A stretch of 64,000 bases of DNA, taken from Sphaerisporangium sp. TRM90804 (lineage in GTDB: Bacteria; Actinomycetota; Actinomycetes; Streptosporangiales; Streptosporangiaceae). This document shows, piece after piece, positions 3,252 to 19,734 of this stretch. A program made the translations under genes and the position numbers. The DNA is taken from the NCBI RefSeq assembly GCF_029846175.1, contig NZ_JARWAC010000033.1:1-64000 (forward strand). Direction: 5' to 3'. Position 1 is the first letter of the stretch. Every line of letters begins with the position of its first letter. The notes beneath the pieces were generated by a model. That model was given only the letters and a program-made list of their open reading frames with translations, had not been told where the DNA came from and made no database searches.

Positions 3252-4382
3252 ATGACTGGGACGATCCGCACGATCGATCTGTTCGCAGGTGCGGGCGGGC
3301 TAGCCCAGGGATTCAGACAGTCCGGGCTTGGTTACGAGACCGTGTTCGCAGTCGAGATCGACCCGGCTGCGGCACGCACCTTCAAGCAGAACTTCGGGTG
3401 TCCGGTCTACGACGGCCCCATCGAGGAGGTCCTCGACGAGGACTACCCGCAGGCAGAGGTGATCATCGGAGGACCCCCGTGTCAGGGGTTCAGTCCCCTC
3501 GGACGCGATCGCGACGACGCCAGTCGAGCCGAGATCAACGAACTCTGGCAGCAGTACCTCAGAGCCGTGCGCCTGGTGCGGCCGAAGGCGTTCGTGATCG
3601 AGAACGTGCCGGAGTTCCAGAAGTCGGCCCAGTTCGCACGCCTCCTCGAGCTCATGGAGACCGACGAGGAGCTCAGGGCCTACAGGTTCGGCTATGGCGT
3701 GCTCAACGCCGCCGACTACGGGGTTCCGCAGAACAGAAAGCGGGGGATCTTCGTCGCGGTGCGGGGCGTCGACGAGGTTCCCTGGCCGCCCAAGCCGACT
3801 CACGGCCCCGACTCGCCTGACGGCAGGCCGTATGTCACCCTGCATGACACCATTGCGGATCTTCCCGAGTTTCCCAAGCACACGGAGATAGCGGTCGACG
3901 ACGCCGGCAGGCAGGACCTGCACATCCGGCGAACGCCCACACAGCAATCCCTGGATCGTTACCGAGCGATCCCTCCGGGTGGGAATCGCTTCGACCTCCG
4001 ACGCAATCGCCCAGACCTCGAACCGCGGTGCTGGGCGAACAAGCCCACCGGCACGACGGACGTGATGGGCCGGCTGTGGTGGGATCGACCCAGCGTGACG
4101 ATCCGCACGGAGTTCTACAAGCCGGAGAAGGGGCGCTACCTACACCCCGTTCACGATCGCCCGATCACCCACCGGGAAGCGGCCAGAATTCAGAGTTTTC
4201 CTGACGAGTTCGTCTTCGTAGGCTCGAAGATCGAGGTTGCGCGCCAGATCGGCAACGCGGTGCCACCCCTACTCGGCGAAAAACTCGCTCGCTTCATATA
4301 CGATCTGGCCTTCGCCTCCGAACACTCCGAGGTGGACTCCGACTCCCTGAGCAGCACGCCTGCGCGTGAAGTGCCAGAATAG
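3252..4382 (+). CDS. C5-cytosine DNA methyltransferase (Dcm/DrmMII-like)
   Basis: Transfers a methyl group from S-adenosylmethionine to C5 of cytosine in DNA. The 376 residues carry the family motifs in order: I (DLFAGAGG, about residue 9), IV with the catalytic cysteine Cys77 in GGPPCQGFSP, VI (ENVP, about 118), VIII (QNRKRG, about 161) and X (GNAVPP, about 334). ATG 3252 is chosen because GGGGAGGA lies 7 bases upstream and the homology begins at once; the open frame extends further upstream without signal. The length suits a solitary or DISARM class-2 (DrmMII) enzyme. It stands at the left of an island with DrmA and DrmB, so it probably marks self DNA. CCWGG specificity, as in known DrmMII and Dcm, is an inference strengthened by the Vsr gene at 19.3 kb. 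Confidence 0.92.
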   Translation: MTGTIRTIDLFAGAGGLAQGFRQSGLGYETVFAVEIDPAAARTFKQNFGCPVYDGPIEEVLDEDYPQAEVIIGGPPCQGFSPLGRDRDDASRAEINELWQQYLRAVRLVRPKAFVIENVPEFQKSAQFARLLELMETDEELRAYRFGYGVLNAADYGVPQNRKRGIFVAVRGVDEVPWPPKPTHGPDSPDGRPYVTLHDTIADLPEFPKHTEIAVDDAGRQDLHIRRTPTQQSLDRYRAIPPGGNRFDLRRNRPDLEPRCWANKPTGTTDVMGRLWWDRPSVTIRTEFYKPEKGRYLHPVHDRPITHREAARIQSFPDEFVFVGSKIEVARQIGNAVPPLLGEKLARFIYDLAFASEHSEVDSDSLSSTPAREVPE

Positions 4383-4409
4383 GTCAAAAAGCAGAGACCT
4401 GTGGCGCGA

Positions 4410-4901
4410 TCATCTCTGATTGACCTCACGAAGCATCTCGACGAAGCCCGCGGCATCACCTCGTCGAGAATTCTCCTTGTAACCCTCGATGATCGAGCGC
4501 TTCAGCAGGAAATCCGCGGTCCTGTCCACGACTGCCGGAACCGCACAGATCACACAGACGGCTAGAAGCAACCACACGGATGGCGCGTGCCCATTTAGCA
4601 ATGCAGTGACAGAGTATCCGGCTCCGGCTCCGACTCCCACTGGAACGGAAGCCGTCCTTTTAGCCACCCGGGCGGCCCCACGCCGCACTCTGGACTGACG
4701 GCTTACGTCCGACACAAGATTCTCACGGTCTTTGACACCAGCACTTTCATTGGCCGAGACCTGCAGCGTCTCCCACATCGCCGACCGGGCACGACGAAAT
4801 GACGACCCTGCGCACGAACTGACGCTTTCGGCTGACGCCATACCAAACATCGTCGTGCGCCCTGTCGGCTCATTCGCCCACTGGTCGAGGTGGAGTGGCA
4901 T
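4410..4901 (-). CDS. Small membrane protein of unknown function in the defence island
   Basis: About 163 residues, convergent with the methyltransferase gene, 27 bases between stops. The first 80 residues are polar with Ser- and Arg-rich stretches. Two hydrophobic segments at about 88-104 and 108-126 could form a membrane hairpin, and a charged tail follows (residues with KRSIIEGYKE). No family is recognised. The start is uncertain: GTG 4910, ATG 4901 and ATG 4850 are all in frame, and AGGTGAGG lies close to 4901. Codon use is less G/C-biased than in the core genome, like other genes of this island. It may be a membrane component or toxin-like accessory of the island, or a passenger. Confidence 0.5.
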   Translation of the reverse strand: MPLHLDQWANEPTGRTTMFGMASAESVSSCAGSSFRRARSAMWETLQVSANESAGVKDRENLVSDVSRQSRVRRGAARVAKRTASVPVGVGAGAGYSVTALLNGHAPSVWLLLAVCVICAVPAVVDRTADFLLKRSIIEGYKENSRRGDAAGFVEMLREVNQR

Positions 4902-5056
4902 GAGCCTCACCTATAGCGGCATCCCAGCGCAAGGGGGGATCACCAATCTACCCCCGACTCTAGACATGAACGCATAAGATACGGTCTGCGTCATTTGCTG
5001 GTTTATGCCTGATTCGTCGGAGTCGTTCTCGAGTTCGGGGAAGAATTTGGCCTCTC

Positions 5057-5086
5057 TTGACATGTCCACCGATAACGGCCTACCCT
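5057..5086 (+). promoter_or_regulatory. Sigma70-type promoter for the defence operon
   Basis: TTGACA (5057-5062) is separated by 18 bases from TACCCT (5081-5086), which fits TANNNT. It lies about 250 bases before the double winged-helix gene and reads toward the ATPase-helicase/drmAB operon. No other plus-strand promoter of this quality was seen before 6087. Confidence 0.5.
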
Positions 5087-5088
5087 CC

Positions 5089-5119
5089 GGCTAGGTGATC
5101 GCTCCTGGGTCGCCTAGCC
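5089..5119 (+). promoter_or_regulatory. Hairpin immediately downstream of the defence promoter
   Basis: GGCTAGG (5089-5095) pairs with CCTAGCC (5113-5119), and the inner GATC/GGTC can extend the stem with one wobble pair. It starts 2 bases after the -10 box, covering the expected transcription start, so it may be an operator or a 5' leader structure. No U-tract follows, so a terminator is less likely. Confidence 0.4.
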
Positions 5120-5334
5120 ATTCCCTGCCCGGATGAGCTCTCCAGCCTGAAGGCGGGTCTTACAGCAGAACAGTTACGCCTAACGCGACGACGGGCCTTA
5201 CCGAGGGATGAAAGCCCAGGTACATGGCTCGGCGTGAGCGTGCCGCGAGCTGTTTTCCGCAGAGCTGTTTCGGCGGTTTCTGCAGTCGTCCTTCAAGCAA
5301 GACTTCATCCCGGACGAAGGGTTTGGGTGGGTCA

Positions 5335-5988
5335 GTGACAACGTCTTCAAGTGGCTATGGTCGGCACGACGTGGAGTTGGCAAAGCTGGAGCAGTCGCTC
5401 AAGGATGCTCTCGCAGTTGTGCAGGCCACTCCGCGCGGGAACCTGAAGCCCCAGGACTGGCTGGAGACGGCGGCCCGAGTCGGCACCCACCTCGCCGAAT
5501 CGCGTGACGCCCTGGCCGAAGTGCGCCAAGACGTCCTCGGAGGCGCCCGAACGGCACTCCTTCTGTACTTCCGCAGCCACCCCGGGGAATCGCTGTCTCC
5601 GCATCAGTTGGAGGGGGTCGCCGCCATCCGTGCATGGGCTCGGCGAATCAGGGAGCTGCGTGAGGTCGGTTGGGACATCGACACGCTCGGCGCAGGCGCC
5701 GGGTCTCCATACCGCCTCGCGGTGGATCACCTGGATGAGGCCGTCGCCTCGAGCGAGGAGACCCTCGAGTCCATCGGCGGCTCGAGCCCTGTCGAAAGAC
5801 TGATCGAGTACCTCCTCCACATCAGTCCCTGGCCGGCAAGTCCGCAGCAGCTCGAACGCGTAGCCAAGTCACCCACGTGGCGACAGGACATTCGAGAGCT
5901 GATCGACCAGGGGTGGCTGATCCAGTCGCACGACGACGATCCCGAGATTCCGCCCGGCCACTATCGGCTGGCGAACCTCGAAGCCTGA
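5335..5988 (+). CDS. Tandem winged-helix protein, first gene of the defence operon
   Basis: About 217 residues. After a helical N-terminal part (about 1-65) come two similar winged-helix modules. The first (about 70-125) contains the pattern LSPHQLEGVAAIRAWARRIRELR, cut here to SPHQLE and RRIRELRE, then an aromatic wing ending in YRLAV. The second (about 150-217) contains SPQQLERVAK and DIRELIDQGW and ends in HYRLANLEA. This module type is common in restriction-linked HNH and ATPase proteins, where it binds DNA or partner proteins. GTG 5335 is preferred (GGGTGGG 5 bases upstream); the open frame begins at 5224 with poor composition. The ATPase-helicase gene follows after 98 bases. Probably a DNA-recognition or regulatory subunit (inferred). 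Confidence 0.65.
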   Translation: MTTSSSGYGRHDVELAKLEQSLKDALAVVQATPRGNLKPQDWLETAARVGTHLAESRDALAEVRQDVLGGARTALLLYFRSHPGESLSPHQLEGVAAIRAWARRIRELREVGWDIDTLGAGAGSPYRLAVDHLDEAVASSEETLESIGGSSPVERLIEYLLHISPWPASPQQLERVAKSPTWRQDIRELIDQGWLIQSHDDDPEIPPGHYRLANLEA

Positions 5989-6086: not shown

Positions 6087-9000
6087 GTGGTTGATTCAAG
6101 CGGGGCCGGGCACGCCGGCCTCTCCGGATGGGCGGGAGCAGAGAGTGCGGTCTCGCAGGTCGTGCTCGAGCAGTCACAGCGCTGCATCCAGTCCTATCAG
6201 GCCAACCCCTCCCTGATCGAAGAGCACGCCAACATCGAGCGTTCGGTCACGGAGGGCGGATACGGCCACCGGCAGTTGTTCGAGCTGATCCAGAACGGCG
6301 CCGACGAGATGCAGGGAGCGTCCGACGGACGCATCCACGTGGTTCTGACACCGAACACCCTGTACTGCGCGAACCGTGGAAGGCCCGTCACCCCTCAGGG
6401 AGCGGAGACCATCCTGGCCTCACATCTGTCGCGTAAGAGGGGCGCAGAGATCGGCCGCTTCGGCCTCGGCTTCAAGTCCGTTCTGAGCATCTCCGACCGG
6501 CCGCAGTTCTTCAGCCACAGCGGTTCTTTCGGATGGTCTGCCGAAGAATCTCGAGTACGCATCCGGGAACGCGTCCCCGGGGAGGGCCCTACTCCTGTGC
6601 TGCGTCTCGCCCACCTGCTCGACGCGCAGCGCGAACGGGACTCAGATGAGACGCTCGACGAACTGATGTCGTGGGCCACCACCGTGGTGAAGCTTCCTCT
6701 GACCGGCGAAGAGCACAGCATCCGTCTCGCAACGGACCTCCGAAAATTTCCTGCGGTGTTCGTCGTCTTCTCTCCTCACGCGGCTCACGTGACCCTGGAG
6801 GAGCGTCGGGAGGAGGTATGGTACAAAGAGATCACCATTCGTGGTAACAGCAACCGGCGATGGCTCCACGTCGTAGAGAACGGCCGCGATGGAACCCCAG
6901 AAGAATGGGCGATCTTCGAGACCAGATATCATCCGAGCGACGACGCCTGGAAGGACGCCGGAGAATATCGAAACCGGCTGGAAGTTCCACTCGCGTGGGC
7001 GGTCCCGGTCACCGGCAAGCAGGAGATCGGCGAGTTCTGGGCATTCTTCCCGACCACGTACAAGACGACGCTTCGGGGAGTCTTGAACGCTCCATGGAAG
7101 ACGAATGAGGATCGTCAGCATCTCCTACAGAACAACGCCTTCAACACTGCGTTGATAGAGCAGGCTGCTCGTCTGATCGTGTCAGCCCTTCCAGCCCTGT
7201 CCACACCGGACGACCCTGCACATCCCCTTTCCTTGATCACTGCTCGAGGGCGAGAGCCGAGGAACTGGGCGGACGACATGCTCACCGAGCGTGTATACGA
7301 CGAAGCCGCCCGCAGCCCCTCCCTGCCAGACCAAACCGGGTGTTATCGGAATCCCGACGAACTCAAGATCCACCCCCGGGCGCCTCGGGCGACTGACGAC
7401 AGGTGGAAGGCGTGGGTAGAGAGGTGGGCCGGATATCCGGGCCGACCGATCGACTGGTGTCATCACTCCGTAGAGGAGACGACTCCTCGATCTCGGGCCG
7501 ACAGGATCATGGAACTCGCGGGCAGTAGGCCGAGCAGCTTGCGTGAGTGGCTGGAGGCACTGGTATCGGATGGAACGGCCGAGGCCTCTGCGATCGCCCT
7601 GTCGATCGTGGCCGAGATGGTCGACGAGGCACATCCGTTCGCATCGGAGGCTGTAGAGGCTGCCGTGCTGCGAACAAGCAACGGACGACTCGTGCCACCG
7701 CAAGGGAAGAGCGTCTTCCGGCGGACCTCGATGGACCTGTCGACCGAGGAAACGGTCTATGTCGACCCTGAACTGGAGAACGACCCGGCCACCTCCAGAT
7801 TCCTCGACATCCTGGGTATCAGGGAGGCCGACGCCTTCGGCCGCCTCGCCGCGGCCGTCGAGGAGGGTTTCGCCTCCTACAGCGACAGGGATTGGGAGCG
7901 ATTCTGGCTGCTGGCCCGACAGACCGGAGCCACGCGGGCCGTCGAACATCTGACCCGGAGAGGGGTGAAGCCCAACCTCAGGGTGCGTACCCGCAAAGGC
8001 TGTTACAAGCCCCTGGAGGAATGTCTGCTCCCCGGCGCCGTCATCCCCTCAGGTAGTCCGGATGACGAGGACTTCGTGGTGGATGACGACTTCCATCTCG
8101 GTGATGTGGAGATGCTCCACTCGCTGGGCATGTCGGACGGCCCCCGTCTCGACATGGATCCTCGGTCCGCCCCTTGGTTCGAGGACTACCGGTCGAGGAT
8201 GATCGACAGGTACTACGCGGTGCTACCGCCGGGTGCCCGACGACCACAGCAGGGCAAGATCGTCGTGGACGGTGCCGAGCCGGCCGGGCCCCTCGGGCTC
8301 CTGCGCGACCTGACGCCCTCCGCCCGGTCGCGCTTCATTCAGAACATCCCGGTCGAGGGCTTGGTGACGGAGTGGACCGTACACGCACAGACCCGCCCCG
8401 ATGATCTGCCACTCTCCGTTCCCTCGCCTTTGGTGTGGGTGCTGGAGCAGACAGGCCGGCTCGCGACCTCGATGGGACTTCGCCCCGTGCGGGAATGCGT
8501 CGGGCCGGGCCTCGCGGAGTACTCACGAGTCCTTCCCGTCGCCGACCTCGACCCGAAGCTCACACGCGCTCTGAGGCTTCCCGACACCCTGGAAGCGATC
8601 AAGGGGTCCCTGTGGCTCTCGCTCCTCAAGGAGGCCGATGAGAGCGAGAGCCATGTGGAACTGGGCATGCTCTACGCGGTCGCGGCCACGCAGTTGAGTG
8701 CTCCGTCGACGATCCGCTGCAGGCGGGGGGAGGACTGGGTCTCCTGCCCGCCGTCGGACGCGGTAGCAACGTCATATCCCGATCAGTACAGACGCCTGCA
8801 GGTCAACGATGTTCCCGTGATCCTCGTTCCTGACACCGACGACGCCGCACGTCTCATCTCCGAATGGGGGATGAAGGCGTTCGACGAGGTCTACGTCACC
8901 GAGCTCCGAGCGACGTCCCAGGGCCGGCCGACCCCCTTGGAAGACGTGTTTCCTCAGCTCAAATTCGAACCCAGACGCCCCCTGCGTGGTTTGTTCCTCG

Positions 9001-10793
9001 CGCGATGCGACGCGTTGGAACAACTCGTGCGCACCCCCGCGGGGCAGACCTCGGAACCGATCGACATCGCCCGACGCGACGAGACGGTCTACTGGCACGA
9101 TCGCGGCGATGACCTGGCTCTGCTGCGGGAGCTGAATCCTCTGCTGAAGCTCGGTCTCTCGGAGGAGCGCTGTCGTGAGGTGCTCCGACACCGGGAGGAC
9201 GTCCAGCGAGACCGGCAGATCGTGCGGGTTCGCGAGCTGCCGGACGTCTGTGACAAGTTGGTGGCCATGCTCGGGGGCGACGCCCTCCGCGAGAGGCTCC
9301 CCTTCGGTCTGGTCGACGCCGTCGAGGCGGAGGAAGGCCCGGTCGACGATCAGACCATCGCGGGACTGGCACTGGCCGTGTACGGCCCCGGTGTCCTGCG
9401 GGAGTTCCGGCAAGAGCTGGAGGACCGGGGCTTTCCCGTGCCGACCCAGCTGGCCGGCAGCCATCAGGCGAAGGCATTCGTATCCGATCTCGGTTTCCCG
9501 GCCGAATACGCGGGCTTTCGGCAGCCCGGTCTCGAGCCGGTGCTGACGGTCCATGGGCCGGTGGACTTCCCGCCCCTGCACGAGTACCAGGAGCTCATGG
9601 TCGGACGGATCTTGGAGGTCCTCCAGAGCCGACCTGCTCAGCGTGGGATGCTCAGCCTGCCCACCGGCGCGGGCAAGACGCGAGTCGCCGTGGACGCGGT
9701 CATCCGCCGGCTGAGATCGCTCCCGCCTGATGCGACGTCCACTCCGATTCTCTGGGTGGCGCAGACGGAGGAGCTCTGCGAACAGGCCGTACAGACCTGG
9801 CAGCTGGTGTGGCGAAACACCGGCCCGGCTCGACGGCTCACGATCAGCAGGCTGTGGAACGTGAACGAGGCCGACCCGGTGGAGGACGGGTACCACCTCG
9901 TCATCACCACCGACGCGAAACTGGAGAGGGTCATCGAGGCCGAGAGCTATGCGTGGCTTCGCGAAGCGCAGGCGGTCGTCATCGACGAAGCGCACGCGTC
10001 GATCAGTCCCCGGTACACCCGGGTCCTGGCCGCCCTGGGCCTGACACCTCATCGCTCACGATGCCCGCTCATCGGACTGAGTGCGACGCCCTTTCGAGGG
10101 ACGAGCACAGAGGAGACGGACCGCCTCGCCGCTCGCTACGGAAGAAACCGGCTCGACCATCACCGCGACGGCAGAGGGATCCTCGGTGAGAACCCATACC
10201 GCCACCTGCAGGAACTCGGCGTACTGGCCGAGGTCAGGCATGAGGAGCTTCCCGGCGTCACGCTGGACCTGAACCGCCGGGAGCGGGATGCCCTCGAACA
10301 GATGCGCCGCCTGCCCGCGTCAGCCGAGGAGCGTCTGGGCCACGACACCGTCCGTAACCGCATCTTGGTCGACAAGATCCAGGCGTTGCCGGACGACTGG
10401 CCGGTGCTGCTCTTCGCCGCCTCGGTCAATCACGCCCAGACCATGGCTGCGCTCCTCACCCGCCGGGGAATCTCCGCAGCCGCGGTGTCGAGCGATTCTG
10501 ACCTGGGTCAGCGCCGACACGCGATCGAGCAGTTCAGGCAAGGTAAGACTCGCGTTCTGGCAAATTACGGCGTCCTGTCGCAGGGGTTCGACGCGCCCGC
10601 CACCCGGGCCGTGATCGTCGCCCGCCCCACGTACAGCCCCAACGTCTACCAGCAGATGATCGGCCGAGGCCTTCGGGGGCCCAGGAACGGCGGCAAAGAG
10701 GAGTGCCTCATCGTCAATGTGGCCGACAACATCGCTCAGTACGGCGAGGAGCTCGCGTTCCGTCAGTTCGAGTACCTGTGGAAGAACCGATGA
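6087..10793 (+). CDS. Sacsin/Hsp90-type ATPase fused to a DEAH-box SF2 helicase
   Basis: A 1568-residue protein of the defence island. The N-terminus is a GHKL (sacsin-like HATPase) domain with the asparagine-containing motif ELIQNGADEM (about residues 65-75) and the glycine-rich GRFGLGFKS (from residue 123). A middle region of about 1000 residues has no domain I recognise and resembles the linker of sacsin-helicase proteins. The C-terminal superfamily-2 helicase has LPTGAGKT (Lys1197), DEAH (1300-1303), SATPFRG (about 1331) and QMIGRGLRG (about 1525). GTG 6087 is chosen, with GAGGGAG about 10 bases upstream. Its stop overlaps the next start as ATGA, so the helicase is coupled to the UvrD-like protein. 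The architecture suggests a nucleotide-gated DNA sensor or translocase; the target is unknown. Confidence 0.85.
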   Translation: MVDSSGAGHAGLSGWAGAESAVSQVVLEQSQRCIQSYQANPSLIEEHANIERSVTEGGYGHRQLFELIQNGADEMQGASDGRIHVVLTPNTLYCANRGRPVTPQGAETILASHLSRKRGAEIGRFGLGFKSVLSISDRPQFFSHSGSFGWSAEESRVRIRERVPGEGPTPVLRLAHLLDAQRERDSDETLDELMSWATTVVKLPLTGEEHSIRLATDLRKFPAVFVVFSPHAAHVTLEERREEVWYKEITIRGNSNRRWLHVVENGRDGTPEEWAIFETRYHPSDDAWKDAGEYRNRLEVPLAWAVPVTGKQEIGEFWAFFPTTYKTTLRGVLNAPWKTNEDRQHLLQNNAFNTALIEQAARLIVSALPALSTPDDPAHPLSLITARGREPRNWADDMLTERVYDEAARSPSLPDQTGCYRNPDELKIHPRAPRATDDRWKAWVERWAGYPGRPIDWCHHSVEETTPRSRADRIMELAGSRPSSLREWLEALVSDGTAEASAIALSIVAEMVDEAHPFASEAVEAAVLRTSNGRLVPPQGKSVFRRTSMDLSTEETVYVDPELENDPATSRFLDILGIREADAFGRLAAAVEEGFASYSDRDWERFWLLARQTGATRAVEHLTRRGVKPNLRVRTRKGCYKPLEECLLPGAVIPSGSPDDEDFVVDDDFHLGDVEMLHSLGMSDGPRLDMDPRSAPWFEDYRSRMIDRYYAVLPPGARRPQQGKIVVDGAEPAGPLGLLRDLTPSARSRFIQNIPVEGLVTEWTVHAQTRPDDLPLSVPSPLVWVLEQTGRLATSMGLRPVRECVGPGLAEYSRVLPVADLDPKLTRALRLPDTLEAIKGSLWLSLLKEADESESHVELGMLYAVAATQLSAPSTIRCRRGEDWVSCPPSDAVATSYPDQYRRLQVNDVPVILVPDTDDAARLISEWGMKAFDEVYVTELRATSQGRPTPLEDVFPQLKFEPRRPLRGLFLARCDALEQLVRTPAGQTSEPIDIARRDETVYWHDRGDDLALLRELNPLLKLGLSEERCREVLRHREDVQRDRQIVRVRELPDVCDKLVAMLGGDALRERLPFGLVDAVEAEEGPVDDQTIAGLALAVYGPGVLREFRQELEDRGFPVPTQLAGSHQAKAFVSDLGFPAEYAGFRQPGLEPVLTVHGPVDFPPLHEYQELMVGRILEVLQSRPAQRGMLSLPTGAGKTRVAVDAVIRRLRSLPPDATSTPILWVAQTEELCEQAVQTWQLVWRNTGPARRLTISRLWNVNEADPVEDGYHLVITTDAKLERVIEAESYAWLREAQAVVIDEAHASISPRYTRVLAALGLTPHRSRCPLIGLSATPFRGTSTEETDRLAARYGRNRLDHHRDGRGILGENPYRHLQELGVLAEVRHEELPGVTLDLNRRERDALEQMRRLPASAEERLGHDTVRNRILVDKIQALPDDWPVLLFAASVNHAQTMAALLTRRGISAAAVSSDSDLGQRRHAIEQFRQGKTRVLANYGVLSQGFDAPATRAVIVARPTYSPNVYQQMIGRGLRGPRNGGKEECLIVNVADNIAQYGEELAFRQFEYLWKNR

Positions 10794-12604
10794 CGAACCT
10801 GGTCCAGTTGACGGAGGAACAGGAACGGCTCGTCGAAGAGCCGGCGACGGCCCGCCTGTTGGTGACGGCGGCGGCCGGTACCGGAAAGACGCTCTCGTTG
10901 ATCCGGCGCCTCGTCCATCTCATCGAGGAGGAGGGGCTCGATCCCGCTGACCTACTGGTACTGAGCTTCTCTCGCGCGGCGGTGCGCGAGGTGCGGAACC
11001 GACTCCTCGAGCACGGAACCGCCGCCGCACAGGTCGAAGTACGGACGTTCGACTCGTACGCCACGTGGGTCCTGTCCGAGGTCGCACCCGACGGTCCATG
11101 GCGACGTCAGAGCTTCGACGGACGGATCCGCGAGGCTACCAGAGCGATCAAGGAGAATCCGGACGCCCAGGAGCTTCTCGGCGAGACACGACATCTCGTC
11201 GTGGACGAGGTGCAGGATCTGGTGGGCGACCGCGCCGAACTCGTGAAGGCTCTCCTGGAGACCGACCTCGAGGGGTTCACACTCCTGGGTGATCCCGCTC
11301 AAGGCATCTACGGCTTCCAACTGGACGACCCTCGGGAGCGCCTGGCAGGCGCGGCACGACTCTATGAATGGGTGCGTGACCGATTCCGCGACGATCTCGT
11401 CGAGGCTTCGTTGTCGGACAACTTCCGTGCCCGCGAGCCCGAAGCGATGGTCGCCCTCTCCTTCGGCACCGCCCTCGGCGCGGTGGACGCCGCCTTCGGC
11501 GACATTCAGCGTGACCTGCGCACCACGCTCCTGGCCGGCGACTCCCTCGGCACACTCGACCAGGCCGTACCCGTCTTGTCTCGTCTGGCCGTACCGACCG
11601 CGTTGCTGTGCCGAGCGAACGACGAGGCGCTTCTGATCTCTCGGCGGCTTCACGCGCTCGGCGTACGACATCGCCTGCAGCGAGCCGCCCAGGATCGAGT
11701 GATTCCCGTATGGGTGGCCGCGCTCTTTCGCGAACTCGACTCCAAACAGCCGACGAAAGCCGCCGTCATGGACGTCCTTTATAGGGCCGGCGCCGACGCC
11801 GAGGAAGCCTGGAACCTCCTGCGGCGCATGGACCGGAACCGACGCGGTGAGGTGCTCGACCTCACGGCCGTTCGCAGACGGCTGGTCCGCGCAGACCTCC
11901 CCGACGAACTCACGCAGCCGTCTCCGGAGTTGCTGGTCGTCTCGACGATCCACCGCGTCAAGGGGTTGGAGTTCGATCAAGTCGTCGTCGTCGACCCCGG
12001 TGACGCGCCGGACGACGATCCCATCGAACGGGCCGAGCGGGCCCGGCTGATGTATGTGGCGATGACCCGACCCCGAGACCTGCTGATCCACGTGAAGTCG
12101 GTGGACAGGCTCTCCTCGGGTCATCTCAGGAAGCAGAGTGACGGACGCTGGGCCGAGCTGGGTTTCCAGGCGGGACGTCGATTCGGCGTGGAGGTCCGTG
12201 CCGAAGACGTGAACCGGGAAGAACCTGCGGGCACAGCCGGATTTCGGGAGGATCCAGAAAAGGTCCAGCGGTACCTGGCGAGCAAGGTGAGAAGCGGTGA
12301 TGCGGTCACCCTCACCCGACTTCCGCAATCCTCATCGGCAGAGCCCCTCATGTACGTCGTGCGGCATGAGGGCAACGGCATCGGCGTGACGACCGATTCC
12401 TTCGCCGGAGCACTGCGGACGCTTCTGCCCGGTCGCGACCGAAGGTTCCCCCCCGGCATCGGAGACCTTCGGGTCGACTGTGTGGAGACCGTCGTCGGCC
12501 GCGAGGCCGCCGGCGTCAACGCCGGTCTCGGCTGGTCGGGCGTGTGGTTGCGACCTCGGGTCATGGGATTAGGCCGTTTCACCTGGGATGGGGAGCTAGC
12601 GTGA
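10790..12604 (+). CDS. UvrD/Rep-like superfamily 1 helicase
   Basis: 604 residues with SF1A motifs: Walker A AAAGTGKT (about 27-34), motif II DEVQD (about 138), motif III GDPAQGIYGFQ (about 167), motif V IHRVKGLEF (about 386) and motif VI YVAMTRPRDL (about 421). Predicted 3'-5' ATP-driven unwinding or translocation on single-stranded DNA. The final 150 residues form a beta-rich extension with no recognised motif; no PD-(D/E)XK nuclease signature is visible. The ATG overlaps the preceding stop (ATGA) and the stop overlaps the DrmA start (GTGA), so it belongs to the same translationally coupled operon. UvrD-type helicases are not part of the canonical DISARM core, which makes this member notable. 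Confidence 0.88.
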   Translation: MTNLVQLTEEQERLVEEPATARLLVTAAAGTGKTLSLIRRLVHLIEEEGLDPADLLVLSFSRAAVREVRNRLLEHGTAAAQVEVRTFDSYATWVLSEVAPDGPWRRQSFDGRIREATRAIKENPDAQELLGETRHLVVDEVQDLVGDRAELVKALLETDLEGFTLLGDPAQGIYGFQLDDPRERLAGAARLYEWVRDRFRDDLVEASLSDNFRAREPEAMVALSFGTALGAVDAAFGDIQRDLRTTLLAGDSLGTLDQAVPVLSRLAVPTALLCRANDEALLISRRLHALGVRHRLQRAAQDRVIPVWVAALFRELDSKQPTKAAVMDVLYRAGADAEEAWNLLRRMDRNRRGEVLDLTAVRRRLVRADLPDELTQPSPELLVVSTIHRVKGLEFDQVVVVDPGDAPDDDPIERAERARLMYVAMTRPRDLLIHVKSVDRLSSGHLRKQSDGRWAELGFQAGRRFGVEVRAEDVNREEPAGTAGFREDPEKVQRYLASKVRSGDAVTLTRLPQSSSAEPLMYVVRHEGNGIGVTTDSFAGALRTLLPGRDRRFPPGIGDLRVDCVETVVGREAAGVNAGLGWSGVWLRPRVMGLGRFTWDGELA

Positions 12605-15600
12605 GTTTCGGTAAGCACTACGCGTTCCGCGACGAACTGGTCGCTCAGCTGGAACGCGACCTGGTCGGTCCCGCGGGCTCGTCCGAAGAGACGATCACCG
12701 ACCCGCCGATCACGAAGTACGCGGCGGGCATCCTCTTCCCACAGTCCCATGATCGCGTGGCCGACGCCAACGCCCCGGACGAGGAGCCGGAGGACAGACA
12801 CCCTGGTGATATCCCGGACCCCGCCGTGACCATGGCCAACGTCCGTTATCCCTCCTCCATGGGGATGACCTTCTCCGTCGACCTCACCATTGCAGACGCG
12901 ATCGTCGTCGAGGTGGAGGCCGCACAGTATCTGCCTGAGGCCGTCACCGAAGGGCGGCGCAGCCGGACCAGCGCGGTCGCCGTCGAGACCTGGCGACGCC
13001 AGGCCATCGCGATGGTCCCCATCACCGTCGAGGTCGCAGTACCCGATCAGGATCGGATAGCGCTCACTGACGGCCTGCAGCTGTTCTATCGAGTACGTGC
13101 AGCCGACGCCGACGGGATATCGGCCGTCACCCTGGCCCTTCTGAACGAATTCCAGTCATCAGAGGACACCGACCGTGACGCGATGGCGTTCTTCCAGCCA
13201 CGCATCACGGTCAAGGGTGTGGATGGATCGGCCCCCTTCGTGGAGCGTCCGTCAGTCGGTTCCGCCGATACAGACGAGGAGCTCAACTCCTACCGGCTGC
13301 TCTATCGGCACGCGCCCGCCTTCGCCACAGGTCACGGCTGCGCGGTCGAGTGGGAGCCGATCGAGGTAGAGATCAACGACGTGGAGGCGACGCCGTCCGT
13401 CAGCTGGATCCGAACGACGTTCGTCCCTACTCATGATCTTCGATTGGCCGACTCCAATCCGGCGATCGACGTAGGCCGACTCGGGATGCATCATCTGGCC
13501 ACGGCATCCGACGGCGAGATCGTATCGGCGCTCAGGGCACTCACCTCGGGCTACCGGGAGTGGATCGCACTGAGAAGGGAGCAGATTCAGCGCATCATCG
13601 TCCCCAGCGCGCGAAGAACCGCAGTCGAACATCTCGCCAGGTGTGATACGGCCTGCGATCGTATGGAGGCGGGAATCGACCTGCTGGCAGACCCCGCCGA
13701 CCCGGCGCCCATGGAGGCGTTCCGGCTCGCGAATCGAGCCATGGCCATGCAGCGCGCCCGAACCGAGTGGTTGAGATCACCTGATCGAGAATCCACGGTT
13801 CCGGATGAGACCGCGGGCGTCTGGCGACCGTTTCAGATCGCCTTCGTGCTCATCTCTCTACGCGGCCTATCCGATCGAGAATCCGACGATCGCGCCGTCG
13901 CGGATGTGCTGTGGTTCCCGACCGGCGGCGGCAAGACCGAGGCATATCTCGGCCTGATCGCCTTCTCCACCTTCCTGAGGCGGCTCCGCGACCCGCGCGA
14001 CGGCGGCGGGGTGACCGTACTCATGCGCTACACGCTCCGCCTGCTGACGGTTCAGCAGTTCGAACGCGCCGCTCTCCTGGTGTGTTGCATGGAGAGACTG
14101 CGCCAAGCTCAGGCCGGCGCGCTCGGCCGGACCGAGATCTCCATCGGCATGTGGGTAGGACGTGGATCCACGCCGAACACCCTGGACGAGGCCAAGCGCT
14201 CACTACGCAAGCTGGCCAAGGGGGAAGAGGTCCAGGAGGAGAATCCGGTCCAGATCCGGGCCTGCTGCTGGTGCGGAACGGCTCTCGACCACTACAACTA
14301 CAAGATCCACGGTGACCGACTGGTCATAGCCTGCGAGGCGGCGGCCTGCGACTTCGCAAGCGGGCTTCCCGTCCACGTGGTCGACGAGACCATCTATTCC
14401 GTCCGCCCCACCTTGGTCATCGCCACCTCCGACAAGCTCGCCGGGCTTCCCTGGAAACCCGACGTCGGCAAACTCTTCAACTACTTCAGCCCCGAGCCCC
14501 CGCCCGAGCTGATCATTCAGGACGAGCTTCACCTCATCTCCGGCCCGTTGGGGACCTTGGCCGGACTCTACGAGACGGCCGTCGATCTGATCGGCGAGCG
14601 GCCCAAAGTGGTGGCGTCGACGGCCACCATCCGCAGAGCCGTACACCAGGGACGCGCCCTGTTCGACCGGCGGGTGGAACAGTTCCCACCGCCGGGGTTG
14701 GATGCCCGCGACTCCTACTTCTCCATCGAGACGCCGCCGTCCAGGAAGGCCAGCAGACGTTATGTGGGCCTGATGGCACCTGCGATCAGCCAGACGAGCC
14801 TCATGGTGCGAACGTACGCGGCACTCCTCCACCATGCCCAGGCGATCGAAGGAGACGACGCGGTCCGCGATGCGTACTGGACTCTGCTGGGGTACTTCAA
14901 CAGCCTGCGACTCCTCGGCGGCGCCAAACTGCAGGTCCAGGACGACGTCAACGACCGTCTCGACCTCCTGAGCGAGAGCCTGAGGCAGAAGAGACGCGAC
15001 ATCGGCCGCGAGATCGAACTCACCAGCCGCGAACCGTCCAGCGCCATCCCCGGGCACCTTCAGGACATGGCCATCCCTCTCCCGGATGCGCTGGGCGTGA
15101 TCCTCGCCACGAACATGGTCTCCGTCGGCGTCGACGTGGACCGACTAGGTCTCATGGTCGTGATGGGGCAGCCCCAGTCCACCTCCGAGTACATCCAGGC
15201 GACCAGCCGTGTAGGTCGGAAATGGCCGGGGCTCGTGGTCACGTTGTTCAACGCGGCCCGATCCAGAGACCGCTCGCATTACGAGAACTTCACCACCTAC
15301 CACTCAGCTCTGTACCGGCAGGTGGAGGCCACCAGCGTGACGCCCTTCTCTGCGAGGGCGCGAGATCGCGGGCTGCATGCCGCCATCGTCGGACTTGCTC
15401 GGGTGATGATCGACGTGGCTCGTCCGAAAGAGGGCGCCGCGTCAATCGCGGAGTTCGAGAACGAACTCCGTGCCATCTGCGACCAGGTGTTGGCCCGCGT
15501 GGAGAGAGTGGCCGGACGGGCTGAACGGGACATGACCGGCAAACAGATCGACGAGATCATCCAACAGTGGCGAGATGCCGCTGAGGCGAATCCGGCACTC

Positions 15601-15753
15601 GTATACGGCACCTACCGACAGACGGGTCTCCTGGTCGATGCGGGCCGCTACGACGAGTCGGATGATGAGATGAGTAATTCTTTCGCAACTCTATGGAGTC
15701 TGCGCGACGTCGACGTGGAGTCCACCATCTACCTGGACAGGGGAGCCCGGTGA
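12601..15753 (+). CDS. drmA: DISARM helicase DrmA
   Basis: 1050 residues. The DrmA hallmark is the helicase block WFPTGGGKTEAYLG (Lys445) followed by MRYTLRLLTVQQF, then DELH in motif II (641-644), STATIRR (about 674) and the C-terminal QATSRVGR motif (about 860). A cysteine pair CCWCG and a second Cys pair (about 556-580) suggest a zinc ribbon between the motor lobes. In DISARM, DrmA and DrmB act together on incoming DNA. GTG 12601 has GGGGAG 6 bases upstream and overlaps the UvrD-like stop. Length and motif order match the family, and the DUF1998 gene directly behind it confirms the pairing. Confidence 0.9.
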   Translation: MSFGKHYAFRDELVAQLERDLVGPAGSSEETITDPPITKYAAGILFPQSHDRVADANAPDEEPEDRHPGDIPDPAVTMANVRYPSSMGMTFSVDLTIADAIVVEVEAAQYLPEAVTEGRRSRTSAVAVETWRRQAIAMVPITVEVAVPDQDRIALTDGLQLFYRVRAADADGISAVTLALLNEFQSSEDTDRDAMAFFQPRITVKGVDGSAPFVERPSVGSADTDEELNSYRLLYRHAPAFATGHGCAVEWEPIEVEINDVEATPSVSWIRTTFVPTHDLRLADSNPAIDVGRLGMHHLATASDGEIVSALRALTSGYREWIALRREQIQRIIVPSARRTAVEHLARCDTACDRMEAGIDLLADPADPAPMEAFRLANRAMAMQRARTEWLRSPDRESTVPDETAGVWRPFQIAFVLISLRGLSDRESDDRAVADVLWFPTGGGKTEAYLGLIAFSTFLRRLRDPRDGGGVTVLMRYTLRLLTVQQFERAALLVCCMERLRQAQAGALGRTEISIGMWVGRGSTPNTLDEAKRSLRKLAKGEEVQEENPVQIRACCWCGTALDHYNYKIHGDRLVIACEAAACDFASGLPVHVVDETIYSVRPTLVIATSDKLAGLPWKPDVGKLFNYFSPEPPPELIIQDELHLISGPLGTLAGLYETAVDLIGERPKVVASTATIRRAVHQGRALFDRRVEQFPPPGLDARDSYFSIETPPSRKASRRYVGLMAPAISQTSLMVRTYAALLHHAQAIEGDDAVRDAYWTLLGYFNSLRLLGGAKLQVQDDVNDRLDLLSESLRQKRRDIGREIELTSREPSSAIPGHLQDMAIPLPDALGVILATNMVSVGVDVDRLGLMVVMGQPQSTSEYIQATSRVGRKWPGLVVTLFNAARSRDRSHYENFTTYHSALYRQVEATSVTPFSARARDRGLHAAIVGLARVMIDVARPKEGAASIAEFENELRAICDQVLARVERVAGRAERDMTGKQIDEIIQQWRDAAEANPALVYGTYRQTGLLVDAGRYDESDDEMSNSFATLWSLRDVDVESTIYLDRGAR

Positions 15754-17510
15754 AGGGGAAGCCCATCGGTGGCGTAAGGCGCGCCCAGCTCATCACCACA
15801 TACGGAGTGGGCTCGCTGATCGCCGTCGGCAGCGAATCGTTCATGGTCGCGGGACTTGATCGTTGGTCTGAACTGGGTCCTTACGATCACACCATCCACG
15901 AGCGCCGGCTCGAGAAGGAACTCGGCGTTCAGTGCTTCCGCCTCCCGCCCGCTTCCGACAGCGACAAGTACGGAGACATTCCCGTCATCCGCTTCCCGGA
16001 CGTCCAGTCGTGTCCAGGATGCAACCGCCTCGCGAAAACACGGTTCTTCGGGGCTGCCAGGAGCCCGGCCAAGTGCAGGGAATGCGACCGTGAGCTGGTG
16101 CCATCCAGGTTCGTCGTCTGCTGCGCCGCAGGTCACATAGACGACTTCCCTTATTTTCGTTGGCTCCACAAAGGCGGCGACTCCCCCGGATCCGACAAGC
16201 ACGACTTGAAGCTCAAGGCGACGGGTCGCAGCGCGTCGTTGGGAGACATCGAGATCTCGTGCTCCTGCGGTGTACGACCCGTCACCATGGAGGGTGCCCT
16301 TCGCAAGGGGGCTCTGAAGGGCATCAGCTCCTGTACGGGAAGACGTCCCTGGTTGGGCGATGCGTCTGAAGAGTGCGAAGAACCTCCACGAGCGATGCAG
16401 CGCGGCGCATCGGGCGTCTGGTTCTCCGACGTGCGTTCCGCCCTCTCCATCCCCCCGTGGTCCGAAGGCGTCCAGAAGCTGGTGGAGCGAGACTGGAGGT
16501 CGCTGCGAAAGGCACACGACCTTCGAGGTCGTATCGAGGAGATGGGTCTGGCGAACCGCCAGTTCAGCATCGACGAGATCATCCAAGCCGTCGAGAGACG
16601 CCGCCAAGACGAGGCCGGCCATACGGACACCTCAGAGGCGGCGTTGAAGTTCGACGAGTATCAGGCGTTGACCAGACCGACCGAAGAGAGATCACGAGAC
16701 CAGGACTTCGTCTGTGTTCCCTGGGAGGACGACGCGATCACCTCGGAGCTCGCCATCGATCAGGTGATGCGGGTCAAGCGGCTACGTGAGGTCCGGGTTC
16801 TCAAGAGCTTCACCCGCCTTGCGGCGCCCAGCTCGATCAACCCGAACCAGCGGGCCCCGCTATACGCCGCGGAGAAGCCCGACTGGCTCCCCGCGATCGA
16901 GGTCATCGGCGAAGGAGTGTTCCTCCGGCTGGATGGTTCTCGGCTGACGGAATGGGAATCAAGGGCAGACGTCCAGGCCCGCGTCGTCCCGATCGACGCC
17001 GCCTACCGAGAACGCTTCGCCCGATTCGGTCTGACCCCGGACAGGGATGTCACACCGCGCCTGGTCATGATCCACACCCTGGCTCACGCGATCATCAATG
17101 AGTGGAGCCTCGACTCCGGATACCCGGCGGCGTCTTTGCGCGAACGGCTCTACGTGTCGGATGGGATGGCCGGCTTCCTGATCTACACGGCCACCAGCGA
17201 CTCCGCCGGCAGCCTCGGCGGAATCATCGCCCAAGTGGAATCCGGCAACCTCCTCACATCCATCCATGTGGCCATGGATCGCGTGTCCTGGTGTTCGGCG
17301 GACCCTCTGTGTGTCGAGTCGGACATGAGCGGGACCGAGAACCTCAACCGCGCCGCGTGTCACGCCTGTGTCCTGCTGCCCGAGACAAGCTGCGAGGAGT
17401 TCAACACCCTCCTCGACAGGGCCCTCCTGATCGGCACACCGGATCAACCTGATCTGGGCTTCTTCGCGCACTTGGCCGGTGGAGTCCGCCCACACGAATC
17501 CGTGTCCTAG
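15750..17510 (+). CDS. drmB: DISARM protein DrmB (DUF1998)
   Basis: 586 residues. The N-terminus has the family opening (GGVRRAQLITTYGVGSL). A zinc-binding region follows (CPGC about residue 87, CREC about 109, CCAAGH about 122). The C-terminal DUF1998 domain (about 430-565) contains HTLAHAIINEWSLDSGYP and the cysteine cluster CSADPLC, CHACVLLPETSCE. DrmB partners DrmA, the complex being thought to load on foreign DNA. GTG 15750 overlaps the drmA stop (GTGA) and has GGGGAG upstream. This is the last gene of the coupled block. No drmC-like gene (HxKxxxxD phospholipase-D motif) follows. Confidence 0.9.
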   Translation: MKGKPIGGVRRAQLITTYGVGSLIAVGSESFMVAGLDRWSELGPYDHTIHERRLEKELGVQCFRLPPASDSDKYGDIPVIRFPDVQSCPGCNRLAKTRFFGAARSPAKCRECDRELVPSRFVVCCAAGHIDDFPYFRWLHKGGDSPGSDKHDLKLKATGRSASLGDIEISCSCGVRPVTMEGALRKGALKGISSCTGRRPWLGDASEECEEPPRAMQRGASGVWFSDVRSALSIPPWSEGVQKLVERDWRSLRKAHDLRGRIEEMGLANRQFSIDEIIQAVERRRQDEAGHTDTSEAALKFDEYQALTRPTEERSRDQDFVCVPWEDDAITSELAIDQVMRVKRLREVRVLKSFTRLAAPSSINPNQRAPLYAAEKPDWLPAIEVIGEGVFLRLDGSRLTEWESRADVQARVVPIDAAYRERFARFGLTPDRDVTPRLVMIHTLAHAIINEWSLDSGYPAASLRERLYVSDGMAGFLIYTATSDSAGSLGGIIAQVESGNLLTSIHVAMDRVSWCSADPLCVESDMSGTENLNRAACHACVLLPETSCEEFNTLLDRALLIGTPDQPDLGFFAHLAGGVRPHESVS

Positions 17511-17639
17511 TACGCGGCCACTCTGGACGGGTGTGGCGAGCTTCGCGCAAGAATGCGCAGATGACGGGCCCATCAGACCTGACCGCCGCGCCCCCTACGC
17601 CACCCCTACCGGGTTGAAAACCAGTTGGACCGAAGGGGA

Positions 17640-17745
17640 TCATTCATAGAAGGTGAAACCCTGCTTGATGACTCGGTCATCGCGGAACATGAGCACGACA
17701 TTCTCTGTCAGCGACCAGCGGCAGGCCACCACACCGCCGCGAAGG
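17640..17745 (-). pseudogene. Possible C-terminal remnant of a small NTF2/SnoaL-like protein
   Basis: Reading leftward, about 32 codons before a TGA at 17640 give a protein-like end with the pattern WSLTENVVLMFRDDRVI, reminiscent of the last strands of NTF2/SnoaL-type proteins. Upstream of it the frame enters the FAD oxidoreductase gene, where it is only a shadow, and there is no start. It would be a truncated relic left when the oxidoreductase gene arrived, or chance. No database comparison was possible. Confidence 0.3.
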
Positions 17746-17754
17746 AGTTTCCTT

Positions 17755-19128
17755 ATGCCCGTGAATGTCTCGCCCGACACGCTTTCGCGCCTCCGGACTG
17801 CGCTCAGTGGCAAGGTGATCGAGCCGCACGACGACGGGTACGACGAGGTTCGCCAGGTCATCTCCGGTGGGTTCGACCTCCGGCCGGCGGCCGTCATCCA
17901 GGTCGCCGACGCCGACGACGTGGCGAAGGTCATCGCGTTCGCCCGTGACAACGGAATCGAACTGGCCGTCCGCGGCGGTGGCCACAGCAACGCCGGCCAC
18001 AGCATCACCGAGGGCGGCATTGTCCTGGACGTCAGGAACCTGTCCGAGATCGAGATCGACGTCGAGGGACGCACCGCGTGGGCCGGCGGCGGCACCACCG
18101 CCGGCGCGTACACCGCAGCGGTCGGCGAGCACGGCCTCGCCACCGGCTTCGGCGACACCGGTTCCGTGGGCCTCGGCGGGATCACGCTCGGAGGCGGCAT
18201 CGGCTTCCTCGTGCGCAAGCACGGCCTCACCATCGACAACCTGCTGGCCGCCGAGATCGTGACCGCGGACGGCGAGCTGCGGCGCGTCGACGCCGACACC
18301 TACCCCGACCTGTTCTGGGCCATCCGCGGCGGTGGCGGCAACTTCGGCGTCGTCACCCGGCTGAAGTACAAGCTGCACCCGCTGGAGCAGATCATCGGCG
18401 GGCTGCTGGTCCTCCCCGGCACGCCAGAGGTCATCGCCGGCTTCGTCGCCGCGGCCGACGCGGCCCCGGAGGAGCTCTCCACGATCATCAACATCATGCC
18501 GGCCCCCCCGATGCCGTTCCTCCCGGAGGAGCAGCACGGCAAGGTCGTCGTCCTGGCCCTCGTCGCCTGGTCGGGCGACATCGAGGCCGGCGAGGAGGCC
18601 CTGGCGCCGTTCCGCGCGCTGGCGACGCCCTACGCCGACTTCGTCCAGCCCATGCCCTACTCGGGGATGTTCCCCGAGGAGGACGCCGGCCAGCCGACCG
18701 CCGCGGCGGAGACCATGTTCATCGACCACGTCGACCTTGACGTGGCCGCCACGATCGTCCAGCACCTCGAGAACTCCGACGCGTCCCTGCGCGCCGTCCA
18801 ACTCCGCGTCCTCGGCGGTGCCATGGCCCGCGTCCCCGCCGACGCCACCGCGTTCGCCCACCGCAACAGCAAGATCATGACGAACGTCGCCTGCTTCTGG
18901 GACGGCCCGGACGATCGCCCCATCCGCGAAGCGTGGGTGGCCGACCTCGCCGGCGCCCTCCTCCAGAGCGACCAGGGCGCCTACGTCAACTTCCTCGGCA
19001 ACGAAAGCGAGGAGCGCGTCCGCGCCGCCTACCCCGGCGACACCTGGACCCGCCTGCGCGAGATCAAGTCCGAGTACGACCCGAGCAACCTCTTCCGCCT
19101 GAACCAGAACATCCCCCCGGCGGAGTGA
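17755..19128 (+). CDS. FAD-binding oxidoreductase (FAD_binding_4 / berberine-bridge type)
   Basis: 457 residues. The PP-loop and FAD-binding fold are visible: AVRGGGHSNAGHS (about residues 70-82) carries the histidine that usually holds FAD covalently, then LGGITLGGGIGFL and DLFWAIRGGGGNFGVVT. The C-terminal BBE segment ends in RLNQNIPP, typical of the family. The usual CxxGxC second FAD link is not seen, so attachment is probably through one histidine. ATG 17755 has GAAGGAG 7 bases upstream. The gene is more GC-rich than the flanking defence genes and separates drmB from vsr, which suggests independent insertion. Substrate unknown. Confidence 0.85.
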   Translation: MPVNVSPDTLSRLRTALSGKVIEPHDDGYDEVRQVISGGFDLRPAAVIQVADADDVAKVIAFARDNGIELAVRGGGHSNAGHSITEGGIVLDVRNLSEIEIDVEGRTAWAGGGTTAGAYTAAVGEHGLATGFGDTGSVGLGGITLGGGIGFLVRKHGLTIDNLLAAEIVTADGELRRVDADTYPDLFWAIRGGGGNFGVVTRLKYKLHPLEQIIGGLLVLPGTPEVIAGFVAAADAAPEELSTIINIMPAPPMPFLPEEQHGKVVVLALVAWSGDIEAGEEALAPFRALATPYADFVQPMPYSGMFPEEDAGQPTAAAETMFIDHVDLDVAATIVQHLENSDASLRAVQLRVLGGAMARVPADATAFAHRNSKIMTNVACFWDGPDDRPIREAWVADLAGALLQSDQGAYVNFLGNESEERVRAAYPGDTWTRLREIKSEYDPSNLFRLNQNIPPAE

Positions 19129-19168
19129 CCTCCAACGACGAGAACCACCCGAGCTGAGTAGCCGCCAT

Positions 19169-19214
19169 GGGCCCGTGTCGAGCACCTTCCACTGTGGGTG
19201 CTGGACACGGGCCC
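19169..19214. terminator. Strong hairpin terminator between the oxidoreductase and vsr genes
   Basis: GGGCCCGTGTC pairs with GACACGGGCCC, and the stem continues through AGCACC/GGTGCT after one mismatch, giving about 17 pairs and a 10-base loop. It lies between convergent genes. There is no U-tract, as is usual in actinomycetes; it could act in both directions. Confidence 0.8.
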
Positions 19215-19260
19215 TGCGCTTGGGTGTGACACCGTGCCGGGCGCGGCCCGGTGGTCGGAG

Positions 19261-19734
19261 CTAGTCGACCCCAGGCGAGTCGTCCCCGCCGTGGAGACAC
19301 CGGCGATACGCCTCCCGCACTCGCGTCGCGGCTTCGACCGGATCCTCATGTTCCCAGACACGCACGACCTGCCAACCGGCCTCCTGCAGCACGCGGTCGG
19401 TCGTTCGATCACGCTCTCGATTCGTCTGGACCTTGGTGGCCCAGTAGTCGGCGTTCCTCTTGGCCACCGTGTGATGTTTCGGGCAGCCGTGCCAGAAGCA
19501 TCCGTCCATGAACACCGCGAGTCGAGCTCTCGTGAAGACGATGTCCGCGGTCCGCCTCACGGCGGGAAGCGGACGGGTGGAGACCCTGAATCGCAGGCCC
19601 AGTGCATGAACCGCCCGCCGAAGAGCCAACTCGGGTCGCGTGTCGCGTCCCTTGTTGGACTGCATGCTGCGTCGCACGCCTTCGTTGGCCGCCCACGAGA
19701 GTGGCTCACTCTGAGCTTCCACCACATCGGTCAC
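19261..19734 (-). CDS. vsr: Very short patch repair (Vsr) endonuclease
   Basis: 157 residues. Vsr nicks DNA 5' of the T in T:G mismatches that arise when 5-methylcytosine deaminates. Family motifs are present: KGRDTRPE (about residues 22-29), the catalytic aspartate in TADIVF, and the zinc/active-site block FMDGCFWHGCP followed by NADYWATK. GTG 19734 is chosen: GAGG lies 6 bases upstream, the product opens with TDVVEAQSEPLSWAA and has normal family length, while longer starts add unrelated sequence. It faces the defence island from the far side, about 15 kb from the cytosine methyltransferase gene. The pairing implies that it repairs damage produced by that enzyme. Confidence 0.92.
   Translation of the reverse strand: MTDVVEAQSEPLSWAANEGVRRSMQSNKGRDTRPELALRRAVHALGLRFRVSTRPLPAVRRTADIVFTRARLAVFMDGCFWHGCPKHHTVAKRNADYWATKVQTNRERDRTTDRVLQEAGWQVVRVWEHEDPVEAATRVREAYRRCLHGGDDSPGVD

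Follow-up and report, generated by a model that had tools for sequence, protein, structure and literature searches.

We analysed a stretch of 64,000 nucleotides from Sphaerisporangium sp. TRM90804 (contig NZ_JARWAC010000033.1, positions 1 to 64,000, forward strand; hereafter the window), in which the two core genes of DISARM, a defence system reportedly described by Ofir et al. in 2018, lie in a run of overlapping genes with a GHKL ATPase-helicase fusion and a UvrD helicase, and in which a C5 cytosine methylase and a Vsr endonuclease lie to either side. The features of the locus are the following:

3252-4382, forward strand: C5 cytosine DNA methyltransferase, 376 amino acids, the presumed self-marking enzyme
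5335-5988, forward strand: small winged-helix protein, 217 amino acids, a possible regulator or DNA-binding partner
6087-10793, forward strand: sacsin/Hsp90-like GHKL ATPase fused to a RadD-type superfamily 2 (SF2) DEAH helicase, 1568 amino acids
10790-12604, forward strand: UvrD helicase (PF00580)
12601-15753, forward strand: DrmA, the DISARM core SF2 translocase, 1050 amino acids
15750-17510, forward strand: DrmB, the DISARM core zinc-binding protein (DUF1998/MZB)
17653-19128, forward strand: FAD oxidase (FAD_binding_4/BBE; PF01565, PF08031), judged to lie outside the system
19261-19938, reverse strand: Vsr endonuclease, accessory, with its domain at 19345-19686

The genes for the fusion, UvrD, DrmA, and DrmB overlap by 4 bases at each of their three junctions (ATGA, GTGA, and GTGA), a pattern that usually signals translational coupling, and share their strand with the methylase and the winged-helix open reading frame (ORF), with Vsr on the opposite one. 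DrmA scores 991 bits against NF038325 (DrmAS; cut-off 950), matches the PADLOC DrmA model at 1e-236, and aligns with the Serratia cryo-electron microscopy chain 7s9v_A of the PDB at 1e-163; DrmB scores 484 bits against NF038324 (cut-off 240), matches PF09369 at 1e-8, and aligns with the companion chain 7s9v_B at 4e-78. The N-terminal part of the fusion scores 64.6 bits against the NCBIfam sacsin ATP-binding domain (cut-off 50), and this GHKL part matches the TmtA models of PADLOC at 3e-53 over residues 22-502. Its helicase part, at about residues 1164-1548, has a RadD entry as its best solved relative (PDB 6jde, 5e-21) and is called RadD-like only, because the C-terminal part reaches 101 bits against the RadD model, far under the equivalog cut-off of 720. 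The UvrD gene matches PF00580 at 4e-28, and its nearest solved relatives by profile are PcrA (7e-34) and UvrD, with GajB weaker (6e-21). The ATP-site boxes of the GHKL part are invariant in all 54 aligned relatives, the UvrD motifs in 47/47, the DrmA motifs in 12/12, and the RadD-type helicase motifs of the fusion in 15/15, except for A1302 (14/15).

A first-pass annotation, made from the DNA letters alone, had placed drmA, drmB, a sacsin/Hsp90 ATPase-helicase fusion, and a UvrD-like helicase in one translationally coupled operon, which the three overlaps and the family cut-offs passed now confirm. It had also named, as a result that would speak against it, a separation of the fusion and UvrD genes from drmAB in the majority of relatives; three genome samples showed the reverse. 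The family sample comprised 150 genomes, of which 23 had a match, the genome of the window included: 17 other genomes carried 18 full-length fusions, four carried a RadD-like helicase only, and one match was a contig-edge fragment. All 18 full-length fusions had drmA and drmB downstream, and 15 of them this UvrD as well. In the order sample of 249 genomes, 31 carried a total of 32 full-length fusions, one further match was RadD-only, and DrmA lay 1517-1912 bases downstream, on the same strand, of every full-length fusion (32/32). Among the named relatives, the best 80 of at least 372 and hence biased to close ones, the four genes were contiguous on one strand in 74; all were actinomycetes except one Dehalococcoidia metagenome-assembled genome (L123). 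These counts overlap, since the order sample contains many family-sample genomes, and the locus sets are not independent; some named and unnamed loci may also coincide (L096/L036, L120/L038, L091/L043, and L110/L177). By sequence, the four genes form a single coupled operon that is kept together in relatives, and the ATP-site motifs of its three motors and of the GHKL domain are intact. The fusion version accounts for 31 of the 90 genomes with a DrmA match in the order sample, a share that may be too high because the profile was derived from 12 DrmA sequences taken from fusion loci and may have under-counted other DrmA. A phylum-wide sample of 396 genomes, searched with the PADLOC DrmA model, gave 27 with a match; leaving aside the genome of the window, 26 genomes contributed 27 DrmA loci, of which two (L175 and L178) have the fusion beside DrmA and one (L177) has UvrD-DrmA-DrmB only, so that, own genome included, the fusion version was found in 3 of 27 DrmA-bearing genomes. 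The variant is common in the order and scarce phylum-wide.

DISARM class 1 comprises the SNF2-like helicase DrmD and the adenine methylase DrmMI, and class 2 comprises DrmE and the C5 methylase DrmMII. The window resembles DISARM in its DrmA and DrmB core, present above the NCBIfam cut-offs as separate genes (a helicase and a DUF1998 part), and in having a DNA methylase in the locus, whereas it differs in adding the GHKL-RadD fusion, UvrD, and Vsr. No PADLOC match to DrmC, DrmD, or DrmE was seen among the window proteins, and none to the class 1 methylase DrmMI in the full results for the fusion, DrmA, and DrmB; for the methylase and UvrD these statements cover the best 25 matches listed. With regard to class 2, the C5 methylase has a DrmMII match, and no DrmE match was seen among the PADLOC matches listed. 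The earlier view that neither class fits therefore holds for the class partners, although cytosine methylation itself is a class 2 trait. The PLD nuclease DrmC is described in sections of PMC9142583 as typical of DISARM and not essential. A same-strand PLD-motif ORF directly after drmB was found at none of the 90 testable fusion loci (of 95, five having too little sequence) versus 8 of the 12 class 1 clade loci, the motif being a loose pattern of which a stricter form caught only 2 of the 12 class 1 controls; DrmC directly after drmB was rejected on this count. The idea that UvrD might be a diverged DrmE was also rejected, hhalign giving 0.1% against the DrmE-position gene of L. plantarum, a weak test in that this gene itself has no PADLOC match. 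In a DrmA tree of 62 rows with labels set by hand, built without the long-branch rows L186-L189, without ARMADA proteins, and without undoubted class 2 DrmA, 28 of the 31 fusion-associated rows fell in one 30-row clade (SH-aLRT 100), whose other two rows (L177 and Tsukamurella) have no adjoining fusion, and the remaining three (L045-L047) fell among NERD-type loci. The ten rows labelled class 1 were split off together by a branch whose support is 99, and the DrmA of the window is, judged by this tree, set apart from class 1.

The C5 methylase, whose start was placed at the ATG of position 3252 within a longer ORF open from 2973, matches PF00145 at 5e-61 on the longer ORF, scores 177 bits against TIGR00675 (cut-off 100.65), and has DruM2 as its best PADLOC match (1e-97), with DrmMII also among the matches. 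It lies 1.7 kb from the coupled operon and is the only C5 methylase of the genome above the cut-off, a second, weaker match occurring elsewhere. The only Vsr of the genome scores 127 bits against TIGR00632 (cut-off 97.85). The first-pass annotation had set a C5 methylase at one end of the island and Vsr at the other; both are present, but Vsr is on the opposite strand and an FAD oxidase gene of higher G+C content at third codon positions (GC3) lies between it and drmB, so that it stands outside the operon. All the partners named earlier are there, and the conserved winged-helix ORF at 5335-5988 had been missed. The less GC-rich codons reported in the first-pass annotation are borne out against the neighbouring genes, GC3 being 0.76-0.80 in the island genes and Vsr (0.76 in Vsr itself) versus 0.93 in the FAD neighbour (0.933) and 0.91 in the NrtR neighbour. 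Strong DNA matches to the FAD oxidase gene occur in five other genomes of the genus and, together with its high GC3, led us to reject it as a part of the system and to treat it as a bystander, with Vsr as an island member. A C5 methylase match was found in 73 of the 80 named loci, often only 24-50% identical, and a Vsr match in 59, with none within the available flanks of the other 21; the two genes lie at most 500 bp apart in 50 of the 57 named loci that have both. Vsr is, by these neighbourhoods, probably an accessory that in relatives travels with the C5 methylase. With the same queries, the class 1 clade loci, which are shorter stretches from a class that uses another methylase, gave Vsr in 1/12 and a C5 methylase in 0/12.

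Of the 10 genomes of this genus that the order sample lists, 3 carry the fusion version, and this patchy presence and the low GC3 would fit an acquired defence island. When an empty insertion site was sought, the upstream flank matched contigs of two genomes (G129:C108 and G081:C3) and the FAD gene matched other contigs of those two genomes, so that the two flanks were not seen together. The winged-helix protein, whose GTG start was chosen by comparison, matches PF14090 (HTH_39) at 7.5e-4, below the cut-off; its ORF was found in 10 of the 80 named relatives and at 18 loci in a second locus search, some of which are the same genome twice, and it appears mostly limited to the subtype of the window.

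The UvrD-DrmA-DrmB part of the operon also occurs with other partners. Eight plasmid records hold a relative of this UvrD at E up to 1e-15; all eight belong to the 56 with DrmA, and by coordinates the UvrD lies just upstream of DrmA in all eight, which include near copies (two R. leguminosarum TA1 entries and two from R. rhizogenes). In three Alphaproteobacterial plasmid loci (one from Azospirillum and two from Rhizobium), a NERD protein comes after UvrD-DrmA-DrmB and the fusion is missing; the R. rhizogenes locus has a C5 methylase and Vsr upstream as well, and in Tsukamurella a RelA/SpoT-domain protein occupies the slot before UvrD. UvrD-DrmA-DrmB looks like the older unit, with the gene in front variable, and in the actinomycete loci found this gene is mostly the GHKL-RadD fusion. 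The presence of NERD proteins in sister loci suggests that the nuclease can come from an exchangeable partner. A different helicase fills the UvrD slot between fusion and DrmA in L045 (7819-9399), L046 (7807-9324), and L047 (10566-12173); the one in L045 carries a NERD nuclease domain, and its counterparts in L046 and L047 resemble it. On the Tsukamurella plasmid (L190:8729-24453), UvrD-DrmA-DrmB is followed by a DrmD-like helicase and a large annotated methylase, and this locus is, on its gene content, best described as a hybrid with class 1 parts. A GHKL-RadD relative, 37% identical in its best segment, lies on an IMG/VR viral contig (L199:8001-12641).

Single parts of the locus recall other defence systems. 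The GHKL part of the fusion matches the models of TmtA, which we take to be Tiamat; the match, however, covers only the N-terminal third of a protein whose remainder includes the RadD-like helicase, and the window has a multigene operon. Its UvrD matches the GajB models of Gabija in PADLOC (best 1e-26), and no GajA match was seen among those listed for the window proteins scanned. ARMADA type II, as presented by Bell et al. 2025 in portions of the YprA preprint PMC12458937, likewise has a YprA-family helicase and a GajB-like UvrD helicase in one operon and involves a Vsr-type nuclease. On the other hand, the window has no match to a BrxHII-like helicase or a PglX-like methylase among the PADLOC matches listed, its UvrD begins at the helicase domain and leaves no space for an N-terminal RelE domain, its DrmA and DrmB are split genes passing DISARM cut-offs, and its Vsr is a separate gene. 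The GHKL MORC/paraMORC restriction systems of Iyer et al. 2008 (PMC2292703) share with it a GHKL ATPase with an SF2 helicase, a C5 methylase, and Vsr, whereas in the window the GHKL ATPase and helicase form a single protein, whose gene is joined to UvrD-DrmA-DrmB; in the portions of that paper on GHKL neighbourhoods, DUF1998 and DISARM genes go unmentioned.

No description of this DISARM variant was found in the literature searched, supplementary tables not covered. The words "sacsin," "Hsp90," and "GHKL" are absent from the YprA preprint (main text only, not the supplement), "DISARM" is absent from the main text of the Actinobacteria survey PMC10482375, and this gene set was not found in the portions covered of the HEPN paper PMC3710099 and the CoCoNuT paper PMC11090510. 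Within these bounds the system remains undescribed, as the first-pass annotation had supposed, but the same preprint, which in the portions covered reports ARMADA, BRIGADE, and TALON, already announces a DISARM-like clade holding many uncharacterised classes. We regard the locus as a new, real, and conserved variant of DISARM and not as a new kind of system.

We consider, with a probability of about 60%, that the locus encodes a chromosomal anti-phage system of the DISARM type, in which the DrmAB core acts together with a chaperone-type ATPase and two additional DNA motors, and that it would work as follows. The C5 methylase would mark host DNA, and DrmAB would load onto incoming unmethylated phage DNA with a 5'-overhang or in single-stranded form. 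The GHKL domain, like its Hsp90 and MutL relatives, may close on ATP as a clamp or gate and couple the loading of DrmAB to the RadD and UvrD motors, which would open the DNA, and the resulting single-stranded DNA would be destroyed by a nuclease, which might be Vsr or an exonuclease of the host and, in the sister loci, the NERD nuclease. Vsr itself would most likely repair the T:G mismatches that arise by deamination at methylase sites, keeping the mark affordable. The loading step is modelled on Serratia DrmAB, in which, according to the sections of Bravo et al. 2022 (PMC9142583) on this point, a trigger loop autoinhibits the complex and unmethylated DNA with a 5'-overhang activates it; the trigger-loop region of Serratia DrmA (176-232) corresponds to a shorter acidic stretch in the window, with D or E at 8 of its 29 positions, the alignment there being weak (5.5 bits). 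That the locus has antiphage activity is what we infer from its gene content. Several observations weigh against this view. No nuclease was recognised in the four core genes, and no classical PD-(D/E)xK pattern was seen by eye among the conserved polar residues of the fusion middle region and the UvrD tail, a hidden nuclease there being conceivable. Six of the 80 named relatives depart from four-gene contiguity: L093 and L094 lie at contig ends, L071 has its UvrD in two pieces, L060 and L106 are without the trio at the expected place, and L110 has no trio nearby, the trio being some 30 kb away if L177 is the same contig. The Alphaproteobacterial plasmid loci indicate that the fusion is not always needed, and the fusion-less sister loci L179-L185, with a C5 methylase near DrmA in 5/7 and Vsr in 2/7, indicate that this pair is not specific to the fusion.

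These departures bear on the possibility that two systems share the operon for expression only, one being a DISARM core of UvrD, DrmA, and DrmB and the other a separate MORC/paraMORC-like restriction module made of the GHKL-helicase, C5 methylase, and Vsr. Parts of PMC2292703 describe restriction-modification neighbourhoods that combine GHKL ATPases, SF2 helicases, C5 methylases, and Vsr, plasmids of Rhizobium and Azospirillum carry the trio but no fusion, and the fusion occurs without the trio at the expected place in L106 and L060; the viral-contig relative, with no UvrD, DrmA, or DrmB match in 12.9 kb, points the same way, if weakly, as the stretch ends 230 bases past the match. Such a composite is nevertheless unlikely, given the constant position of DrmA just downstream of the 32 full-length fusions of the order sample, the three 4-base overlaps, and the fact that Vsr is the one enzyme recognised at the locus that could be the restriction nuclease of this module. 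Vsr could also be an effector rather than a repair guard, nicking phage DNA at or near methylase sites and so providing an entry point for DrmAB and UvrD. No other nuclease was recognised at the locus, the PADLOC model for Vsr is labelled a type II nicking endonuclease, and an active Vsr-type domain is predicted in the YprA helicase of ARMADA types I and II according to portions of PMC12458937; the position of Vsr by the methylase in relatives and the 21 named relatives with no Vsr match in their available flanks make this role quite unlikely.

A bolder extension would join a mismatch-repair-like logic to DISARM, with the GHKL domain as a MutL clamp, UvrD as the MutL-activated helicase, Vsr as a MutH-like nicking enzyme, and C5 methylation as the strand mark, nicks in wrongly marked DNA giving DrmAB its single-stranded entry. 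We hold this to be very doubtful; if true, a defence machine would have evolved by the merging of a methyl-directed repair circuit with the DISARM translocase. RadD, UvrD, GHKL proteins, and Vsr all have repair relatives, and the operon might serve DNA repair or mismatch processing and be unrelated to phage defence, but the DISARM family cut-offs passed by DrmA and DrmB, the patchy presence within the genus, and the deviating composition render this highly improbable.

Specialists would care about the locus because the variant is common in the order and is without the known DISARM partners, and they would not be astonished, since uncharacterised DISARM-like classes had been announced. A considerable share of the genes annotated as "DISARM DrmA" in these actinomycetes may belong to a system without those partners. 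The variant ties DISARM to GHKL ATPases and Vsr, known so far, in the literature searched, from other restriction systems, and its gene set lends itself to one-by-one deletion, which would address what DrmAB needs in the choice between self and non-self and which nuclease finishes the process.

Further observations concern neighbouring genes and single relatives. Between the methylase and the winged-helix ORF, a 166-amino-acid ORF on the reverse strand (4410-4910) has hydrophobic stretches by eye, and its only relatives among the loci searched are in L031, L032, and L033. Two fusion genes lie close together on one contig in Actinoplanes xinjiangensis and Streptomyces tropicalis (L060, L107; L103, L106). 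In L089 (5389-9385), a divergent module stands upstream of the fusion in place of the winged-helix ORF and encodes an XRE-HTH protein (PDC-M33A 1e-23), a 330-amino-acid protein, and a DUF6339 protein (PDC-M33C 1.5e-8); similar ORFs occur in L062, L095, L117, and L120, only the L089 proteins were scanned, and the matches identify the three-gene XRE/DUF6339 module of Streptomyces-type loci weakly. Adjoining the island, the protein encoded at 20129-22009 (forward strand) has hydrophobic N-terminal stretches by eye and a C-terminal nucleoside phosphorylase domain (PF01048) and, with matches to PADLOC PDC-M60C (3e-19) and a PN-superfamily effector (2e-8), looks like a defence effector.

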